Shown: one piece after another, positions 132 through 27,206 of the stretch
Position numbering within the stretch: the first letter of the stretch is position 1
How the letters are laid out: each line of letters begins with the position of its first letter
NCBI GenBank assembly: GCA_030613245.1
Contig: JAUWMI010000045.1
Span: 1-33,918, forward strand
Length of the DNA stretch: 33,918 bases
Direction: 5' to 3'
Source: Candidatus Sumerlaeota bacterium
GTDB lineage: Bacteria > Sumerlaeota > Sumerlaeia > MWCT01 > JAUWMI01
Translations under genes and position numbers: made by a program
The notes under the pieces: model-generated
Database searches by the model: none
Told to the model about the DNA's origin: nothing
What the model saw: the letters and a program-made list of their open reading frames with translations, nothing else

Positions 132-332
132 TCCGCCTTCGGCGGTAATGCGCGTCTTCGGCGGACAAGTTTTGCACGTAAAGGGGCACGCTGCGGCGTG
201 CCCCTACTGGTTTTCCTCTCACACTCGCCATTCAGATTATCTGCGAAAAAGCTTGATTCTGGTTGGGAGCAGTGAGATAAGAAATCTGGAGAAGGGAATC
301 CTGAGGAACCAGGCTTTTTGAGGGGGATTAAA
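132..332. other. Intergenic region between tandem beta-helix paralogues
   Basis: It holds a small CCGCC-TTCG-GCGG hairpin just after the stop and a long GC-rich hairpin at 182-205. The last bases contain a purine-rich AGGGGG at 321-326, six bases before the ATG at 333, which is the ribosome-binding site of the next gene. No convincing promoter was seen. Confidence 0.5.
182..205. repeat. GGGGCACGC / GCGTGCCCC hairpin element (copy 1)
   Basis: This is a perfect inverted repeat, AGGGGCACGC and GCGTGCCCCT around a TGCG loop. The same element with the same flanking text, including TTTTGCACGTA just upstream, occurs at 4022-4049 after the next paralogue. It could act as a transcription-end hairpin, but no uridine run follows directly, so a dispersed palindromic element is the safer call. 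Confidence 0.75.
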
Positions 333-3300
333 ATGCAGAAGCTTCGTTCTCAGAGCCGATTGGTAATATGCAAACCGGCGTCGCTCCAAATACCAATTCT
401 TCTAGCGTCAATCTGCTTCCTTAACTTCTCTCTGGTATGCACTGCAGCGATAATTAAAGTTCCTGAAAACTATTCAATAATCCAGTCAGCCATCAACGCC
501 GCATTCGATGGCGATGAAATCATCGTCTCCCCGGGCACCTACTATGAGAACATCAACGTCAACGGCAAGAACATCATCCTCCGCTCCACTGACCCCACCA
601 GCGCAACTGTTGTCGCCAGCACCGTAATAAATGGGCGTTCTTCCGTCGTATGGTTCAGTGGAAGAGAATCTCCGTCCTGCATCCTCTCTGGCTTCACTAT
701 TACTAATGGCAATTATTTCAAGGGTAGTGGTATCTATGGTAGTGGCACCCGGGCAACTATCGAGAACAATCACATTACTACAAATACGACCTATGGGTTT
801 AGCGCTTCATATAGTAGAGGCGGTGGTATATGGAATTGCGACGGACTTATACAGAACAATGTAATTTCAGGAAACAGGACAACTGACTCTTGGGGTGCCG
901 GTGGTGGGCTCGCTGAGTGCGACGGGGTGATCAGAAACAATATTATCACAGGTAACTCTGCTACTGGAACGGGAGCCACGGGCGGCGGGCTCTATAACTG
1001 CAATGGCACTATTGAATACAATACCATTTCGGGCAACTGGGCTAGGAGTAGCGGCGGTGGGCTCGCAGAGTGCAGTGCTATCATCCGGAACAATATCATT
1101 TCAAACAACAAGTCTTACAGAGATGGCGGTGGGCTCGCCGGTTGTAATGGCATCATCGGGAACAATACCATATGGGGCAACTCCGCCAGCGAATATAGCG
1201 GTGATGGTGGCGGGCTCTATGATTGCGATGGCGTCATTCAGAATAATACCATATATGGAAACACGGCCAAATCAGGTGGCGGTCTCTATGAATGCCGGGG
1301 TTTTATTACTAATTGCATCATTTGGGGGAATTCCGCTTCCTACGGTAGCCAGATTGCTGAGTGCAGAGTGCCCTTTTCCAGCTGCATTCAGGGTTGGACT
1401 TACAATGACAGAGCCAATATCTCGGATGATCCCAGATTTATTGATCCGGGTAATGGTAATTTTCATATCCCACCCGATTCCCCTTGCATTGACGCTGGCA
1501 ATACATACTATCTTCTTGGCCAATACCTTGCTGATATAGATGGGGAATGCCGTGTAGCAGGCAGCTCGGTAGATATGGGAAACGATGAATGTGGCAGTTC
1601 GCCTGACAATGATGGTGATTTGCTATCGGATGCTAATGAGGCAGATCACGGTAGCGACCCTAATAAGCCCGACACAGATGGAGATGGTTTAAAAGATGGC
1701 TTGGAAGTTCAGAGAGGCACAGATCCAAACTTCTACAATACACCTACAGGAATTTCCATTCCCGCTCAATATTCCTCCATTCAGCAAGCACTGTTCTTTG
1801 CTTTTCCCTCGGAAACAGTAACCGTATCACCTGGAATTTATGAAGAAAACCTCCACTTCCTGGGCAAGAATCTAATCCTTCGGAGTACAAATCCCCTGGA
1901 TGATAATACAACCAGTAACACGATAATAGATGGGGGGCTATTATCTGCAGCGATAACTTTTAAAGGCACTGAAAATGAAAGCTGTATGATTAAAGGCTTT
2001 ACTATCCAGAATGGCGCTAGGCGGAATGGTGGGGGTATACGGGGCAATGGAACACTGGCTACCATTCAACACAACAAAATCTTTGGCAACTACGCTCAGC
2101 AGGGATCTGGAATTTTCGGGTGTCAAGGCACAATCGAGAAAAACGTAATTTCCGGCAACTTTGCAGGAGGGCACGGCACACTCTACGGGTGCAATGGCAC
2201 CATCCGTGACAACATCATTTCTAATAACACTGCAATCTGGAGCGGAGGTGGATTGTGCGATTGTGATGGCCTCATTGAAAACAATTCCATTACAGACAAC
2301 CATGTTCGTGATAGCAACTTTTCCTTTGGCGGCGGGCTTAGCGAATGCGATGGTACGATTCAGAACAATAATATTTTGCGGAATCATTGTAGTGGATTTG
2401 AGATCGGCGGTGGCGGTGGGCTGGCAGGGTGCAACGGCACCATCCAGAACAATGTCATTTCAGAAAACATAGGCTCTGGTATTCAGAGCTTTGGGGGCGG
2501 CCTTTCAGGTTGCTCCGGCATTATCCTGAACAATATCATAAGTGGTAATTCCGCTCAGCGTGGCGGTGGGCTCTCTAGCTCTGATGGTTTTATTGCGAAC
2601 AACACCATCTGGGGCAATTCGGCCCATTGGTATGGCGGCGGCCTTTATAAATGCCCGGGCAGAATCAGGAATTGCATAATATGGCAAAATACTGCCTCTG
2701 CCGATAGCCAATTGCATGATTGCCCGCTAATCAGCTATTCGTGCATCCAGGACTGGGCAGATGGTACCGGCAATATCTCATCCGATCCTCTTCTGGTTAA
2801 TCCCTCAAATGGGGATTTTCACCTTCTCGCAAGCTCGCCCTGTATAGATGCTGGTTGTCTAGCTCGTTGGGGAAAGGACTTTGAAGGAGATCCCAGACCG
2901 TGGGACGCTACAAGCGAGCAGCGGGGCGATGGCAGCAACTTTGACATAGGCGCCGATGAATTCGTTGGGCCTGTGGAGTTCGACTTTGTCCTTTCCCGTG
3001 AAGGCTGGACAACTGGCACAGCCCCGATTTTTACTGCGCCAAAGTGGATATTTGAGACAGGATGCGTGAAACTGGTTTCGCAAAATAATACCAACACCTT
3101 TGGGTACTGGAGTACCTCGGCCAATGCAATTCCCGTCACCCAGAATTATCTCTATCGTGCGCAGTTTGTGGTCTCTACGGATGTGACGCAGCCGGAACTT
3201 GTTCCGCAGATTCGCCTGCGAGTAAATTCACGCAACTTCCAACAGGCCGACTGCCTGACGATTGACAGCAATGGCGACGGTGGTGCATCGCCTACTCCCG

Positions 3301-3977
3301 AGGGCACAACCTATGATCTCTATTTTGTTCCACCAGCAAATGAGCAATTCTGTATGCTCGCATTTGACTTGCTCAACTTCACCAGCAACGATGCGCCAGA
3401 CGCGGAACTCGCGCTCGATAGTGTGCTGATTGACCGCTTCCGATTGGACACGCTGGACGATTCTGCTGGTACCAGCTGGACATATGATTTTGAGGCAAGT
3501 CAGGGGTTCTGGTTACCTGGCGATGCTGCGTTCGTATTTAGTGCTCCTGAGTCTTTCTGGGAAGATGGGGCGTTGCATTTGCGGTCAACGACAAACACCA
3601 ATACATTTGGCTACTGGGGAAGCGATCCAACAGATATTACGATTGAGGAGAATCGTCTATATCGTGGGACGTTTGAGGTAAGAACGGACGAAACAAACCG
3701 AAGTCGCGTGCCGCAGATGCGCCTACGATTCAACGCTGCAAATTTGCAAGCATGTCGTTCTCTCGAAATCGCAAGCAGCGACGACGGAGCAAATTCCCCG
3801 GGTACCACAAACACAACATACGACCGACTCTATTTCCTGCCTCCAGCGAACTGCGTCGGTGAAGACTTGCTCATCTCCTTCGACATACTCAACTTTAACC
3901 CCGGAGACGCCCCAACCGCCAGTCTGATCCTGGACCGAGCTGTAATCGAATCACTTTCACCACCAGGCTCACCCTGA
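333..3977 (+). CDS. Giant secreted right-handed beta-helix protein with two helix blocks and twin C-terminal modules
   Basis: The start is set at ATG 333 because AGGGGG lies six bases upstream; a TTG at 318 extends the frame by five codons. The product is 1,214 residues. The N-terminus has a basic start and a hydrophobic stretch (about residues 19-39) typical of a signal peptide. Two parallel beta-helix blocks follow, about 40-390 and 470-840, built from rungs of the form GGGL-x2-C-x-G-x-I-x2-N-x-I. Each block begins with a related segment (YSIIQ/YSSIQ, VSPG-Y-EN, GKN-ILRST) and ends with SPCIDAG, as in choice-of-anchor Q type proteins. Between them, about 425-465, is an aspartate-rich thrombospondin-3-like calcium-binding segment (DTDGDGLKDG). 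Two copies of a ~160-residue module containing NTNTFGYW follow at about 880-1040 and 1050-1210. Proteins of this shape often bind or cleave polysaccharides or act as adhesins; no catalytic residues could be identified. Confidence 0.85.
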   Translation: MQKLRSQSRLVICKPASLQIPILLASICFLNFSLVCTAAIIKVPENYSIIQSAINAAFDGDEIIVSPGTYYENINVNGKNIILRSTDPTSATVVASTVINGRSSVVWFSGRESPSCILSGFTITNGNYFKGSGIYGSGTRATIENNHITTNTTYGFSASYSRGGGIWNCDGLIQNNVISGNRTTDSWGAGGGLAECDGVIRNNIITGNSATGTGATGGGLYNCNGTIEYNTISGNWARSSGGGLAECSAIIRNNIISNNKSYRDGGGLAGCNGIIGNNTIWGNSASEYSGDGGGLYDCDGVIQNNTIYGNTAKSGGGLYECRGFITNCIIWGNSASYGSQIAECRVPFSSCIQGWTYNDRANISDDPRFIDPGNGNFHIPPDSPCIDAGNTYYLLGQYLADIDGECRVAGSSVDMGNDECGSSPDNDGDLLSDANEADHGSDPNKPDTDGDGLKDGLEVQRGTDPNFYNTPTGISIPAQYSSIQQALFFAFPSETVTVSPGIYEENLHFLGKNLILRSTNPLDDNTTSNTIIDGGLLSAAITFKGTENESCMIKGFTIQNGARRNGGGIRGNGTLATIQHNKIFGNYAQQGSGIFGCQGTIEKNVISGNFAGGHGTLYGCNGTIRDNIISNNTAIWSGGGLCDCDGLIENNSITDNHVRDSNFSFGGGLSECDGTIQNNNILRNHCSGFEIGGGGGLAGCNGTIQNNVISENIGSGIQSFGGGLSGCSGIILNNIISGNSAQRGGGLSSSDGFIANNTIWGNSAHWYGGGLYKCPGRIRNCIIWQNTASADSQLHDCPLISYSCIQDWADGTGNISSDPLLVNPSNGDFHLLASSPCIDAGCLARWGKDFEGDPRPWDATSEQRGDGSNFDIGADEFVGPVEFDFVLSREGWTTGTAPIFTAPKWIFETGCVKLVSQNNTNTFGYWSTSANAIPVTQNYLYRAQFVVSTDVTQPELVPQIRLRVNSRNFQQADCLTIDSNGDGGASPTPEGTTYDLYFVPPANEQFCMLAFDLLNFTSNDAPDAELALDSVLIDRFRLDTLDDSAGTSWTYDFEASQGFWLPGDAAFVFSAPESFWEDGALHLRSTTNTNTFGYWGSDPTDITIEENRLYRGTFEVRTDETNRSRVPQMRLRFNAANLQACRSLEIASSDDGANSPGTTNTTYDRLYFLPPANCVGEDLLISFDILNFNPGDAPTASLILDRAVIESLSPPGSP

Positions 3978-4021: not shown

Positions 4022-4049
4022 GTAGGGGCACGCTGCGGCGTGCCCCTAC
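4022..4049. repeat. GTAGGGGCACGC hairpin element (copy 2)
   Basis: This is a perfect 12-base inverted repeat around a TGCG loop, 45 bases after the stop of the beta-helix gene. The preceding CCGCCTTCGGCGG hairpin and the TTTTGCACGTA text are also shared with the region after the upstream paralogue. The 3' flank therefore appears to have been duplicated with the gene. Confidence 0.75.
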
Positions 4050-13229: not shown

Positions 13230-13330
13230 TTTAGCAGGGCTTGAGCCTGCTACCCTTTGCACCCCGCCTCGGCGGGGGTGAAGAGATAGCACAAAAATCA
13301 CCCTAAGCGCGCTTTAGCGTGGCTTATCGA
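13230..13330 (+). repeat. Composite REP-like element, order A-D-C
   Basis: Three palindromes follow each other: A (TTTAGCAGGGCTTGAGCCTG, 13230-13251), D (CACCCCGCC-TC-GGCGGGG, about 13260-13279) and C (AAGCGCGCTTTAGCGTGGCT, 13305-13330, ending TATCGA). The element at 25982-26082 has the same order and the same total length of 101 bases, although the spacer between D and C differs. C can fold as AAGC-CA-CGC / GCG-C-GCTT with a TAAA loop, the imperfect stem typical of REP sequences. Confidence 0.75.
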
Positions 13331-14837: not shown

Positions 14838-14910
14838 TGCCCATACGCCGGTGCACTATCATCTTTGAACTGGCTAACAAGTTGTAACATGGGTATCTTG
14901 TGCTTTATAC

Positions 14911-15045
14911 ACACGGGTTGGAAGCCAGTGCCTGGAGTTTGGATATTTTGCCAGGCAATGAACAGGTTTGGGATAGGGTGGTCAATGAATTTGGCCTGCC
15001 TTGGCGGGTTCGCCTTTGCACTCGCCTCAGGCGAGGCGAAACATT
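14911..15045 (+). repeat. Composite REP-like element, degenerate (B-core-D)
   Basis: It begins with a B palindrome (ACACGGGTTGGAAGCCAGTG), followed by a core that starts with GGAGTTTGGATATTTTGCCA and runs to a GGCCTGCCTTGGCGGG hairpin, then CTCGCCTCAGGCGAGGCG. The same order and similar core text recur at 15441-15618 and, more diverged, at 26090-26255. Confidence 0.65.
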
Positions 15046-15064
15046 GAAAAAACATCTTCCATCT

Positions 15065-15169
15065 ATGATGTGTTATGAAAACAATCAAAAGGAGCATCAC
15101 AGAAAAGGAACTATTAAAAAGGTTTTGGAGGAATTCAGAACATACTTTGAAGAAGAGCGGACAGAATGA
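15065..15169 (+). pseudogene. C-terminal remnant of a REP-associated tyrosine (Y1/IS200-like) transposase
   Basis: The frame encodes a peptide containing YENNQKEHHRKGTIKKVLEE and ending FEEERTE-stop (TGA 15167-15169). The pattern Y-x-N-Q-K-E-H-H-x2-G-T-I is the well-known C-terminal helix of RAYT/Y1 transposases, which carries the catalytic-tyrosine-side helix and its HH pair. The rest of the gene is absent: upstream lies only a D-type palindrome. A second copy at 24872-24946 keeps the same frame, and most base differences between the copies are silent, including TGA versus TAA. The stop is 11 bases before an inverted C palindrome (15181-15206), as in the second copy. It is non-functional as it stands. 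Confidence 0.75.
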
Positions 15170-15180
15170 CTAAAGTCGGT

Positions 15181-15206
15181 TCGAGAAGCCACGCTAAAGC
15201 GCGCTT
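15181..15206 (-). repeat. C-type REP palindrome, 3' of transposase remnant
   Basis: TCGAGAAGCCACGCTAAAGC GCGCTT forms AAGC-CA-CGC / GCG-C-GCTT with a TAAA loop. It is inverted relative to the copies at 13305 and 15593 and starts 11 bases after the transposase stop, as at 24958. Confidence 0.75.
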
Positions 15207-15440
15207 GGGGTTTTGATGCAACCACCTTTTCACCCCCGCCTAGGCGGGCTAAACAACACCGCATCGAGTGCATAGCGTTTCTTCTTGTACTCCGAGGAAT
15301 ACTGGAAAACATCCGAACCGCATAGAACACGGGTTGGAAGCCTGTGTCAAGTCCATCAAGGTTAAATTGCTCCCTAGCGCCGCATCAGCCTTGAACTAAT
15401 GGGTGGTTGGTGTCATGGACAACCTGGCCATGATACGCAA

Positions 15441-15618
15441 GCGCTGGAAGCCCACGCCAGGAGTTTGCACGTTTTGGCAGGCAAAGGCCAGGTTTGTGAT
15501 AGGACGATCAGTGAATTTAGCCCGCCTTGGCGGGCTCTCCTTAGCACCCGCCTTCAGGCGGGGTGAAAAGAGAAGAACGCGAACCCAATGTTAAGCGCGC
15601 TTTAGCGTGGCTTCTCGA
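15441..15618 (+). repeat. Composite REP-like element, order B-core-D-C
   Basis: A degenerate B (CGCTGGAAGCCCACGCC) is followed by the core (AGGAGTTTGCACGTTTTGGC onward), an AGCCCGCC-TT-GGCGGGCT hairpin, a CACCCGCCTTCAGGCGGGGTG hairpin and a C palindrome at 15593-15618. It ends about 90 bases before the start of an AT-rich orphan gene. Confidence 0.7.
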
Positions 15619-15711
15619 ATAGGCTTTAGCAATCATACAAGGTTCAGGACACATCTTCAGTGAAATCTATCTTGAGTTCAAAAAAGAATCACAAAACCAA
15701 GAAAGTTAAAA

Positions 15712-16458
15712 ATGAAATCCTTGGAAGAAATTAAAGATAACATAAGGTATATTATTTACGAACTTCGCATAGATAAAGATGATGGTTTTGACAGACGACA
15801 GACTTTGGTTAAGTATTATACTTCTCTTGCAGTCTCAGAAAAAGAAATATGTGAACAGTATATTTGTAATGCTATAAAGACACAAGATGAAAAGTTGAGT
15901 TACTGGTTAATCCGGCTATGTGCCGATGCAAAGTTGCATGACTTTGCTCCGTGCGTTGAAGAGGTATATAATTCCAAGCGATTTATCTCAAATATAATGC
16001 GAGAACAAATGCTATTGACCATGCTTCGCGTTGGATATGAACCTGCTGTTACTCTTATGTTGGAATTTTTAGATCAAATTACGCCGGAAAGTAATCGGTT
16101 TAGAGCTAAAATGATTTTAACTGCAACAACAGCACATGCTGATGAAGATTCATTTATTAATTTAGCCAGAGATTTCTGGTTAGATTTGTTTTCATATAGA
16201 AAAAGTAAAAATCTAGACACTATTGCAGGTGTATTCACATACCATATTTTTGAAAGTAATCCTACTTTGCTCAAAAAACTGGTGGAATGCATATACCGCT
16301 TGTGTCATAAGCGGGGAAAGCAACTTGCTCAATTATTCTTAAACGAAATAAACAAATTTGAGAAAGAGCATTCAGAAAAGATTGGTAAGAAGACATTGAA
16401 TGAAATTAAAGGATATTTAGAAAAATTTGTTGTCATTGATGAAGCCCGAGATCTATGA
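15712..16458 (+). CDS. AT-rich orphan protein, predicted all-helical, unknown function
   Basis: The 248-residue protein is not recognised. It is cytoplasmic in appearance, with no signal peptide or membrane segment, and reads as a chain of amphipathic helices with HEAT-like spacing (for example EKEICEQYICNAIK, YWLIRLCADAKLH, LLTMLRVGYEPAVTLMLEFL) and a lysine-rich C-terminus. Base composition and codon use are clearly more AT-rich than the flanking genes, suggesting recent acquisition. The ribosome-binding site is weak (AAGAAAG about six bases before ATG 15712). It lies within the repeat-rich insert that separates the acyl-CoA dehydrogenase from etfBA, between a transposase C-terminal remnant and an N-terminal remnant, and its TGA directly abuts the latter. 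Helical repeat proteins of this size occur as immunity-like or regulatory passengers, but nothing here allows a functional call. Confidence 0.75.
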   Translation: MKSLEEIKDNIRYIIYELRIDKDDGFDRRQTLVKYYTSLAVSEKEICEQYICNAIKTQDEKLSYWLIRLCADAKLHDFAPCVEEVYNSKRFISNIMREQMLLTMLRVGYEPAVTLMLEFLDQITPESNRFRAKMILTATTAHADEDSFINLARDFWLDLFSYRKSKNLDTIAGVFTYHIFESNPTLLKKLVECIYRLCHKRGKQLAQLFLNEINKFEKEHSEKIGKKTLNEIKGYLEKFVVIDEARDL

Positions 16459-16614
16459 TTGAAAAACATCTACCTCAACTGGCATTGTCACAACGACACT
16501 CCCATGATCAGGCCTTCAACTGAACCTCTTCTTTATGAATTGCTTAAGGGATATTGCCGCAAGATTAAAGGCATTCATTTTGGAAGAGTTGGAGGCACCG
16601 AGACGTTAAGATAG
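16459..16614 (+). pseudogene. N-terminal remnant of a RAYT (Y1/IS200-like) transposase
   Basis: The frame TTG 16459 to TAG 16612-16614 encodes 51 residues containing IYLNWHCHNDTPMIRP, LLYELLKGYCRK and FGRVGGTE. This matches the start of RAYT transposases, in which YLH-x-W-H-x-K-N-x-x-P-x-I is followed by a helix and GG-T/V-E-x-HVHL. The remnant breaks directly after GGTE, so the catalytic H-hydrophobic-H motif and everything after it are missing. It begins immediately after the stop codon of the orphan gene, in the same frame. An A-type palindrome follows at 16628-16650. Confidence 0.75.
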
Positions 16615-16627
16615 GATTATCATAGCA

Positions 16628-16650
16628 TTTAGCCGGACTTCAGCCTGCTA
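16628..16650 (+). repeat. A-type palindrome after transposase N-terminal remnant
   Basis: TTTAGCCGGACTTCAGCCTG CT is a diverged A repeat and is followed by AAATGGAGTGAG. The same AAATGGAGTGAG text follows the inverted A copy at 25037-25058. Confidence 0.65.
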
Positions 16651-16784
16651 AATGGAGTGAGGTTGGGTGCGATAGGCTGTGCTTGTCTCCCGATTGATGC
16701 TGGAATTCAGTATTCGAGTGGTGAAAATTTCGTGGCAGCACTTCGATCATACTGTTGACTATTCTCTGCATCTGAGGATTCGCG

Positions 16785-24841: not shown

Positions 24842-24866
24842 ACACGGGCTGGAAGCCCGTGCCACG
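24842..24866. repeat. B-type palindrome (ACGGGCTGGAAGCCCGT)
   Basis: This is a perfect palindrome around GGA. It ends directly upstream of the transposase remnant, in place of the missing part of that gene. Related copies lie at 14911, 15328, 25267 and 25398. Confidence 0.75.
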
Positions 24867-24871
24867 TACAC

Positions 24872-24946
24872 CATCACAGAAGAGGGACCATTAAAAAGGT
24901 TTTAGAGGAATTCAGAACACACTTTGAGGAAGAGCGGACAGAATAA
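24872..24946 (+). pseudogene. C-terminal remnant of a RAYT transposase (copy 2)
   Basis: The frame encodes HHRRGTIKKVLEEF and ends FEEERTE-stop (TAA). It is the same peptide as at 15065-15169 with two or three changes (for example Y to H), most other differences being silent. A B palindrome abuts its 5' side and an inverted C palindrome begins 11 bases after the stop, as in the first copy. Confidence 0.75.
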
Positions 24947-24957
24947 CTAAAGTCGGT

Positions 24958-25058
24958 TCGAGAAGCCACGCTAAAGCGCGCTTAGGTGGAGTTTTATCCT
25001 ACCTCTTCACCCCCGCCGAGGCGGGGTGCAAAGAAGAGCAGGCTGAAGCCCTGCTAAA
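24958..25058 (-). repeat. Composite REP-like element, inverted (C-D-A)
   Basis: Inverted C (24958-24983), a D hairpin CACCCCCGCC-GA-GGCGGGGTG (25009-25029) and inverted A (25037-25058) occur in the exact reverse order of the A-D-C composites at 13230 and 25982. The span is again 101 bases. Confidence 0.75.
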
Positions 25059-25078
25059 TGGAGTGAGTTTACGTCGCC

Positions 25079-25172
25079 TGAGAAGCCATGCTAAAGCGCG
25101 CTTGGGGCTTGGCGCAACCACCTTTTCACCCCGCCTGAAGGCGGGTGCAAAGAAGAGCCCGCCTAGGCGGGC
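25079..25172 (-). repeat. Second inverted C-D composite
   Basis: An inverted C (GAGAAGCCATGCTAAAGCGC GCTT, 25080-25103) is followed by CACCCCGCCTGAAGGCGGGTG and AGCCCGCCTAGGCGGGCT hairpins. Its downstream text matches 15206-15424. Confidence 0.7.
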
Positions 25173-25266
25173 TAAACAACACCGCATCGCGTGGACACCG
25201 GATCGAATGCATAGCATTTCTTCTTGTACTCCGAGTAATGCTGGAAAACATCCGAACCACATAGAA

Positions 25267-25287
25267 CACGGGCTGGAAGCCCGTGTC
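25267..25287. repeat. B-type palindrome
   Basis: ACACGGGCTGGAAGCCCGTG is a perfect B palindrome; the matching position in the other duplicated block (15328) is degenerate. Confidence 0.7.
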
Positions 25288-25397
25288 GAGTCCGTCAAGG
25301 TTAAACTGCTCCCTAGCGCAGCATTAGCTTTGAACTAATGGATGGTTGGTGTCATGGACATCACGCCACAGGCGCATTTTCAACTTGCCCATGATAC

Positions 25398-25421
25398 ACA
25401 CGGGCTGGAAGCCCGTGCCAC
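25398..25421. repeat. B-type palindrome
   Basis: ACACGGGCTGGAAGCCCGTG recurs, followed by CCACGTGCATTA. Upstream, the text CATCACGCCACAGGCGCATT (25362 region) is repeated again near 25496-25520. Confidence 0.7.
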
Positions 25422-25981
25422 GTGCATTAAAATCAAATTTCTCTCTGGTGTGAGCAATTGCCATTGAGATAATGTGGATGAGTTGTATCATGGGCATCAC
25501 GCCACAGGCGCATTTTCAACTTGCTCATTTCTCCCCAAAATTTCAAAACCCAAGACACGAATTCCGGCCAGTGCGTACCATGGGCTAGTAGTCCGTCAAC
25601 ATTGTTTTGATGGGTAGCGCCCGCCTCTGGCGGGCAGTCTGGAGGGCATCCTGCCCTCTCCTCATATGAAGGCGAGACGCCGACGCTACGCCATATCAAC
25701 AACTGACTTTGCCATAGGCACCAACCCATCATTTCAAAGCTAATGCTGCATCACACAGTGATTTATTGATCTTCGCATAAGTAATGGTACAGTTGAAAGC
25801 TTAGCGATCGTGTAAAAATCGGTCTTTTAGGAGCATTGGGCATTACTTTATTTATGCGAAATTCGATAAACTAGATGGACGCGACTTGACAAGACCATCC
25901 AGCCCATGGATGTATGGAGTTTGATATTCTTGAGTCGTCAATCGGGATACAAGAAGACGCATTATCCACGACAGAGTTTTG

Positions 25982-26082
25982 TTTAGCAGGGCTTCAGCCT
26001 GCTCTTCTTTGCACCCTGCTTTAGCTGGGGTGAATTCAGTGAAGGATGAATCCTTAAAGCGCGCTTTAGCGTGGCTTCTCGA
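25982..26082 (+). repeat. Composite REP-like element, order A-D-C
   Basis: A (25982-26003), a diverged D (CACCCTGCTTTAGCTGGGGT, 26012-26032) and C (26057-26082) span 101 bases, as at 13230-13330. Bases 26008 to 26089 are repeated exactly at 26260-26341. Confidence 0.75.
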
Positions 26083-26089
26083 GAGAGGC
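26008..26089 (+). repeat. 82-base exact direct repeat, copy 1
   Basis: All 82 bases are identical to 26260-26341, with a period of 252 bases. The unit contains a D hairpin, a GGATGAATCC palindrome and a C palindrome. Confidence 0.85.
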
Positions 26090-26255
26090 GGACCGGAAGC
26101 CCGCCTCAAGAGTTTGGATACTTCAGCGGGCAGCGAGCAAGTTTGTGAGAGGGAAATTGGAAAATTTAGCCTGCCTCAAGAGTTTGGACATTTTAGCGGG
26201 GAATAAGCGGGCTTGCGAAGGGAAAATCGGAGAATTTAGCCCGCCTAGGCGGGCT
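26090..26255 (+). repeat. Degenerate B-core segment between the direct repeats
   Basis: It has CCGGAAGCCCGCCTCAAGAG followed by a core duplicated in tandem (GCCTCAAGAGTTTGGA occurs twice, near 26101 and 26173) and ends in AGCCCGCCTAGGCGGGCT (26238-26255). Confidence 0.6.
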
Positions 26256-26259
26256 GCCC

Positions 26260-26341
26260 TTTGCACCCTGCTTTAGCTGGGGTGAATTCAGTGAAGGATG
26301 AATCCTTAAAGCGCGCTTTAGCGTGGCTTCTCGAGAGAGGC
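26260..26341 (+). repeat. 82-base exact direct repeat, copy 2
   Basis: It is identical to 26008-26089. It ends 11 bases before the first possible ATG (26352) of the NIF3-like gene, so that gene's leader is largely repeat DNA. Confidence 0.85.
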
Positions 26342-26396
26342 TTTAGCGATTATGCGCAGTAACAAGAAAACAGATTTCAAAAGGATGAATAGACAA

Positions 26397-27206
26397 ATGA
26401 ACACAGATCAGATTATGCAAATTGCGCTTGACCTCGTTGGATTTCCTGAGATTCCCGGCGACAGCACTATCTACGTGCCAGGGGATGACATCCAACGCGT
26501 TGCAATCGGCGTAGATATGGAGGCCGCTGAACTCCTGCTCGCCATGCAAATCGGCGCCCAGTGTGTTATTGCTCATCACCCGGCTGGCGGCACGGCCTTC
26601 TCGCGCTACCACGAAGTCATACGCAAGCACGTTGACCTGATGGTAAATGCTGGTGTGCCGCAACCTGCTGCTGAGGAGGCCCTTCAGCCGCTTCTCCAAA
26701 AAACATCCATCCTCATGCATAAGAAAAATCACGACCATAATCCTTCGGTCGCTCGCTTTCTCGACATGCCTTACATGAATGTTCACAATCCTTGCGACGA
26801 GCTAGGCCGCCGCATCATGCACGATACGATTCAGGCTCACCTCACCGCAACGTCAACACTTCAGGATGTCGTTGATGCTTTGATGACACTGGCCGAATTT
26901 CAGCACGCACATACCCGGATCGCCATCCTGATGGGCAAACCAGAAACTCCGGCCGGCCGCGTCGTAGTCGCCCACGGGGCAGGTACCAATGGCGGCGCCA
27001 GTGTGGCAAAAGCCTATTTCGATCACGGCATTGACACAGTTATATATATTCACATTGACCCGGAGGAGTTTGAAAATCTGCGCCGCTCGGCCCGGGGTAA
27101 CCTGATTATTTCAGGACACATTGCCAGCGACGCCGTAGGCCTGAATCCCTTTATCAGAGCACTGGAAAACAAGGGATTAGAAGTCATTCGGATGAGCGGG
27201 CTGTAG
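26397..27206 (+). CDS. NIF3-like (DUF34) metal-binding protein
   Basis: ATG 26397 (MNTDQIMQIALDLVG) gives 269 residues; in-frame ATGs at 26385 and 26352 are possible, and AAGG at 26381-26384 is the only purine-rich site. The protein has the NIF3 pattern: QRVAIGVDMEAAELLLAM, VIAHHPAGG (metal-binding HH pair), a middle segment with SILMHKKNHDHNPS, GRVVVAHGAG, DTVIYIHIDPEEF and the C-terminal GHIASDAVGLNPFIRALE, which replaces the usual GHYESE. NIF3 proteins bind a dinuclear metal centre; their cellular reaction is still unclear. The repeat island ends just upstream, so the promoter must lie within or across repeats. Confidence 0.8.
   Translation: MNTDQIMQIALDLVGFPEIPGDSTIYVPGDDIQRVAIGVDMEAAELLLAMQIGAQCVIAHHPAGGTAFSRYHEVIRKHVDLMVNAGVPQPAAEEALQPLLQKTSILMHKKNHDHNPSVARFLDMPYMNVHNPCDELGRRIMHDTIQAHLTATSTLQDVVDALMTLAEFQHAHTRIAILMGKPETPAGRVVVAHGAGTNGGASVAKAYFDHGIDTVIYIHIDPEEFENLRRSARGNLIISGHIASDAVGLNPFIRALENKGLEVIRMSGL

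Follow-up and report, generated by a model that had tools for sequence, protein, structure and literature searches.

REP systems usually go together with class 2 RAYTs, and HUH/Y1 enzymes bind single-stranded hairpins, cleave DNA under the guidance of a foot sequence through a tyrosine-linked intermediate, and rejoin the ends. In the RAYT/TnpAREP REPtrons and their REPINs, a Y1 HUH gene lies between inverted palindromes near its stop codon, inverted palindrome doublets are scattered in the genome, and the stems vary while their 5′ foot is conserved (Nunvar 2010, PMC2817692; Bertels and Rainey 2011, PMC3116915). Two other groups of TnpA_Y1 proteins are also pertinent. Those of subclass 1.2 carry the motifs DH[VI]H, WQ and Y[IV]xNQKEHH (YIKNQKEHH-like), are approximately 148–150 aa long, occur in low copy number and were reported without REPs, mostly in Cyanobacteria and Bacteroidetes (Quentin 2018, PMC6006769, Table 1). 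Class 3 proteins (NHVH, W[TA], Y-x4-Q, CnGA foot) come from Planctomycetes and Acidobacteria, have several atypical flanking structures and were placed as intermediates between IS and REPtron (Quentin 2018, PMC6006769).

The window, i.e. the whole stretch of DNA analysed here (33,918 nt from the genome of a Candidatus Sumerlaeota bacterium), contains transposase fragments that are probably (a chance of roughly three in four) the remains of a small IS200-type element with a REP-like system of mirrored palindromes. Such elements resemble REPtrons and REPINs in all the respects listed above, but their enzyme is of the IS200 type (Y-x3-Q), their foot is CGAGA and not GT[AG]G, each side carries three to four palindromes, and the copy number is low. 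Their transposase family shares its motifs and size with subclass 1.2, yet differs from it in having mirrored palindromes and in its hosts (Sumerlaeota, Planctomycetota and Acidobacteriota). With class 3 it shares Planctomycetes and Acidobacteria as hosts and multiple gene-flanking structures; it is set apart by the published motif descriptions (DHVH/DHIH, WQ and Y-x3-Q in the family), and its CGAGA foot resembles the CnGA foot without a clear fit. The catalytic core and the Y-x3-Q motif are those of IS200/IS605 TnpA proteins (ISDra2, ISHp608), which have one subterminal hairpin per end rather than mirrored arrays. No description of the family was found in the open-access papers searched on REPtron, TnpAREP and Sumerlaeota.

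Transposase fragments and palindrome arrays in the window

Both peptide fragments reported in a preliminary description of this DNA (15065–15169 and 24872–24946), and both palindromes, were found at the positions given there. The fragments translate as MMCYENNQKEHHRKGTIKKVLEEFRTYFEEERTE and (H)HHRRGTIKKVLEEFRTHFEEERTE, respectively, each ending in a stop codon, and 11 bases separate the stop from TCGAGAAGCC at both sites. The first fragment proved to be longer than originally noted, with similarity starting at 15047, and two additional pieces of the gene, missed previously, were located at 15635–15687 (weak alone) and 16465–16605 (strong).

These assignments were obtained with a profile HMM built from 21 family members, which scored no higher than 11.2 bits in any of 30 shuffled windows. 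The C-terminal fragment (15047–15160) scored 25.9 bits (E=6.7e-7), its second copy (24869–24937) gave E=0.03, and residues 10–56 (16465–16605) reached 47.7 bits (E=1.3e-13). The protein signal of the N-terminal scrap at 15635–15687 (match 15647–15697) is weak when taken alone (5.6 bits); the scrap sits at the expected gene start, directly preceded by an inverted P1 and by the leader GGCTTTAGC known from intact genes. Compared with an alignment of 11 family members, the window fragment YENNQKEHHRKGTIKKVLEE has lost none of the five positions that are invariant in this part of the protein. No intact transposase copy was detected at E≤1e-15 in the source genome (G000; ~96% complete).

The features of the region are listed below (P0 to P3 number the palindromes outwards from the gene).

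13230–13328, minus strand: left-type array P3, P2, P1, not followed by any recognisable gene start
14994–15039, minus strand: left array of element A, reduced to inverted P3 (outer) and P2 (middle); the inner palindrome and gene residues 1–105 are missing (from the sequence)
15044–15169, plus strand: C-terminal transposase fragment, from about residue 106 to the stop, with the catalytic-Tyr position YENNQKEHH (HMM, alignment)
15168–15177, plus strand: mini-palindrome P0′, GACTAAAGTC, the innermost of the series and the homologue of GGCTGAAGCC, which lies at the stop of intact relatives (alignment)
15182–15206, plus strand: P1 ("C") palindrome of the right side, with CGAGA foot (CGAGAAGCC, invariant in the right-end alignment)
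15231–15253, plus strand: fused P2 and P3, apparently through deletion (comparison with 25122–25176)
15256–15421, no strand: linker within the duplicated segment, repeated at 25195–25360 (91%; repeat search)
15516–15616, minus strand: inverted P3, P2 and P1 forming the left array of element B (P1 at 15593–15616)
15621–15687, plus strand: P0 GGCTTTAGC and N-terminal transposase scrap (M)QGSGHIFSEIYL (alignable with the leader and start regions of intact genes)
15712–16458, plus strand: AT-rich orphan ORF of 248 aa, between the N-terminal scrap and residues 10–56 of the transposase
16465–16605, plus strand: transposase residues 10–56, NIYLNWHCHNDTPMIRPSTEPLLYELLKGYCRKIKGIHFGRVGGTET (HMM)
16628–16651, no strand: outer-type palindrome; AAATGGAGTGAG comes next, as it does after the outer palindrome at ~25055
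24869–24946, plus strand: second copy of the C-terminal fragment, from HH to the stop (profile HMM)
24959–25055, plus strand: right array of copy 2, P1, P2, P3
25080–25176, plus strand: second right array adjoining that of copy 2, P1, P2, P3
25982–26080, minus strand: left-type array P3, P2, P1
26235–26354, minus strand: left-type array P3, P2, P1 (P1 at 26309–26332), then the transposase leader GGCTTTAGCGATTATG

With up to 3 mismatches allowed, the window contains 7 copies of palindrome GAGAAGCCACGCTAAAGCGCGCTT, compared with none in 100 shuffles. The array at 14994–15039 is a direct repeat of 15516–15568, and P0′ occupies most of the 11-base spacer after the stop codon.

Comparison of the two fragment sites revealed that segment 15095–15636 is colinear with 24872–26353 (BLAST pieces in the same order), with 93% identity over the 115 nt at the fragments (15095–15209 versus 24872–24986). 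Since the two sites represent one duplicated segment, the match in their 11-base spacing counts only once as evidence. The loci had previously been regarded as two decayed insertions: both copies are indeed decayed, in a genome where no intact one was found, but since they are colinear duplicates, two separate insertions are not supported. The differences between the copies, earlier called mostly silent, comprise four silent and two replacing changes among the sense codons (plus one stop-to-stop change), a ratio that is suggestive but based on too few changes to prove selection.

Other features accompany the arrays. The leader and ATG in GGCTTTAGCGATTATG (ATG at 26352) are also where the ORF of a DUF34/NIF3 gene (26352–27206) begins; this gene may now depend on both of them, or its actual start may lie further inside. 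Members of a second palindrome family, ACACGGGCTGGAAGCCCGTG, alternate with the arrays (14906–14930, 15327–15345, 24842–24861, 25266–25285 and 25398–25417), and one of them directly precedes the second C-terminal fragment. Elsewhere in the window, AGGGGCACGCTGCGGCGTGCCCCTAC forms an inverted pair (182–207 and 4022–4047) around the gene of a large beta-helix protein (318–3977).

The orphan ORF has a GC content of 33%, compared to 52% for the window. It was considered as a known defence or phage gene, an assignment that was rejected: no Pfam or PADLOC match was obtained and the PHROGs matches were weak only. No relatives were detected in the 38 other genomes of the class. A search for an exact target duplication around the ORF found none, and the gene junctions contain only an imperfect ATCTATCTT/ATCTACCTC pair; therefore, no defined insertion mechanism is claimed.

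The transposase family in related genomes

A search of 60 related genomes with a 34-aa peptide identified longer open frames with the same ending, from which proteins of ~150 aa were read out. Thus, full-length Y1_Tnp proteins sharing the C-terminus of the fragments do exist, and in several cases the same palindrome lies directly downstream of the gene. The two intact relatives scanned matched PF01797 (Y1_Tnp) with 60.5 and 66 bits. Members were detected by a genome scan in Candidatus Sumerlaeota, Planctomycetota and Acidobacteriota. The family motifs are Y-x3-Q-x2-HH, DHVH/DHIH and WQ, and in the alignment of 11 members HUH, Y119, Q123, H127, L136 and E137 are invariant. Assignment to class 3 was dropped, as these motifs disagree with the published table (Quentin 2018, PMC6006769, Table 1); the CGAGA foot resembles CnGA, yet does not fit its published description. 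Judged from its sequence, the enzyme is IS200-like, similar to subclass 1.2, and not a classical GTAG-type RAYT.

The palindromes could in principle be the usual terminal hairpins of an ordinary IS200/IS605 insertion sequence, with solo copies arising from deletions. This explanation draws on the class 1 motifs, on the match to the NCBIfam IS200/IS605 model NF033573 (61.9 and 54.7 bits; cut-off 55), on the best PDB relatives of intact family proteins, which are IS200-type TnpA proteins such as that of ISHp608, and on a tree in which the 21 members form one group (98/98) on the IS200 side. We nevertheless consider it unlikely. IS200 carries one subterminal hairpin per end, whereas family genes are flanked by mirrored multi-palindrome arrays, and short paired-palindrome units are dispersed in the genomes. 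Moreover, the several near-identical copies per genome typical of IS200/IS605 class 1.1 were not seen in the family genomes: nine of the 298 Planctomycetota genomes contain the family, each as a single copy, and the pair in genome G005 is divergent.

That the enzyme is instead a classical class 2 RAYT of a GTAG-type REPtron is highly improbable, even though the anatomy (inverted palindromes around the gene and dispersed doublets) is REPtron-like. The NCBIfam model for REP-associated tyrosine transposases (NF047646) scored 18.6 bits, far below its cut-off of 80, the motif is Y-x3-Q rather than of the Y-x3-NP type, and the palindrome foot is CGAGA, not GTAG. In addition, the family and three class-2-like proteins of the same genome fall on opposite sides of a supported branch, although the branches to these three proteins are very long and the placement is supportive only. 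The source genome itself encodes three other Y1_Tnp proteins (L001, L002 and L003), all class-2-like.

Mirrored and dispersed palindromes

The stop codon of intact family genes is followed, in order, by P0′ (GGCTGAAGCC-like), P1 (the CGAGA foot with its hairpin), P2 (often CACC...GGTG, then CAA) and P3. The same series, inverted, precedes the genes, with up to four palindromes per side. The CGAGAAGCC palindrome is inverted before the ATG in L054, L056 and L063, and CGAGAAGCC is invariant in six right ends, including one from Planctomycetota. The spacing of 11 bases, previously put forward as fixed, is not a rule of the family and was not seen outside the window: TCGAG (CCGAG in L063) lies 6–8 bases past the stop in L054, L056, L057 and L063, and in other intact relatives the stop lies inside a hairpin loop.

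The median mirror score of the flanks was 53 for the family (at least 30 in 16 of the 21 genes), compared to 13 for 97 control ORFs (95th percentile, 20). The mean flank score was 45.9 within elements and 17.8 between them. Stems vary between elements, yet match from left to right and enclose TRAA-type loops, a pairing that is a biased test, because the sequences compared had been chosen as hairpins. Some family genes (L039, L038 and L170) have no mirrored flanks, and the window copies keep only parts of theirs. The Bacteroidota relatives L065 and L066 also lack mirrored flanks, in agreement with published subclass 1.2. In 8 of the 21 family genes the stop codon lies within a hairpin loop closed by three or more base pairs, compared with none of 30 sister genes and 24 of 527 control ORFs, a conservative comparison, as the control set may still include family ORFs.

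Y1 proteins with a YDERYVWD-type tail (L089, L053, L164 and others) form a sister group, in which mirror scores reach at least 30 in 21 of 29 cases; the REP-like arrangement may thus be wider than the family described here.

P1 is also dispersed (≤1 mismatch): 16 copies were found in the source genome, 20 in G011 (a genome with an intact family gene), 10 in G008 and 6 in G009. It is rare or absent in the remaining members of the class, and a reversed-pattern control gave no hits. The copy number is modest (16–30 at the mismatch levels used), well below that of typical REPs. P1 and the family gene, each present in 7 of 39 class genomes, co-occur in only three, a small overlap that may be explained by variation of the P1 stem.

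Two inverted P1 copies with a short spacer, the structural trait of REPINs, were found dispersed at nine loci in the source genome (spacers of 37–46 nt) and at one locus each in G011 and G009 (43 nt). These units retain P0-like leader sequence (of the GGCTTTAGC type in the source genome), and the unit of G011 (L117) additionally retains GGCTGAAGCC from the stop side. The longest ORF across ten checked units of the source genome is 79 aa. Locus L124 of G008 contains both P1 copies, a start region and the C-terminal third of the gene and is, by its composition, an intermediate between the full element and a gene-deleted unit. The simplest reading of the paired units is that they are REPIN-like derivatives of the element, formed by internal deletion.

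The idea that the palindromes are independent repeats or terminators, placed beside the gene by chance and co-duplicated with it, accommodates the origin of both window copies in one duplication and the abundance of such palindromes in these genomes, but is already disfavoured and has very little probability left, given the mirrored flanks of 16 of the 21 relatives as compared with control ORFs, the same CGAGAAGCC foot adjoining the gene across phyla, and the parts of the gene's leader and stop region kept in paired units.

The proposed element

The homology of the fragments and the anatomy, dispersal and decay of the element are direct observations; DNA recognition, cleavage and mobility are ascribed to the family enzyme by analogy. 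The preliminary description had taken the palindrome for the cognate REP of a RAYT family. Its association with an IS200-like HUH Y1_Tnp C-terminus stands, as the palindrome adjoins the stops of relatives and is dispersed; the enzyme is, however, not a RAYT in the strict sense.

The complete element would consist of a HUH/Y1 single-strand nuclease of ~150 aa encoded between mirrored hairpin arrays (P3-P2-P1-P0, gene, P0′-P1′-P2′-P3′). A REP-like mechanism appears most likely, in which the enzyme would bind single-stranded hairpins via the conserved CGAGA foot beside a variable stem. Foot-guided cleavage nearby by its tyrosine, with a tyrosine-linked intermediate, would be followed by rejoining of the ends. 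Copies that lose the gene and retain their ends would persist as short, REPIN-like paired-palindrome units. In the source genome, where the gene is dead, the segment comprising C-terminus, right array, linker, left array and N-terminus was presumably duplicated ~10 kb apart; the copies would then have been eroded by deletions, and one of them interrupted by the AT-rich ORF.

The chances appear evenly balanced that the family represents an IS200-class (Y-x3-Q) lineage with a REP/REPIN system of its own, separate from both the GTAG-type RAYTs and class 3, and distinguished by up to four palindromes in each mirrored array, a CGAGA foot common to its Sumerlaeota and Planctomycetota members, and stop-containing TGAA/TAAA loops in 8 of 21 genes. 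With an IS200-class enzyme at its centre, a REP-like system would constitute a further, possibly independent, route from insertion sequence to genome-resident repeats. The CGAGA hairpin and the enzyme would form a testable pair, and the series of gene-deleted derivatives would illustrate a possible origin of REPIN-like units.
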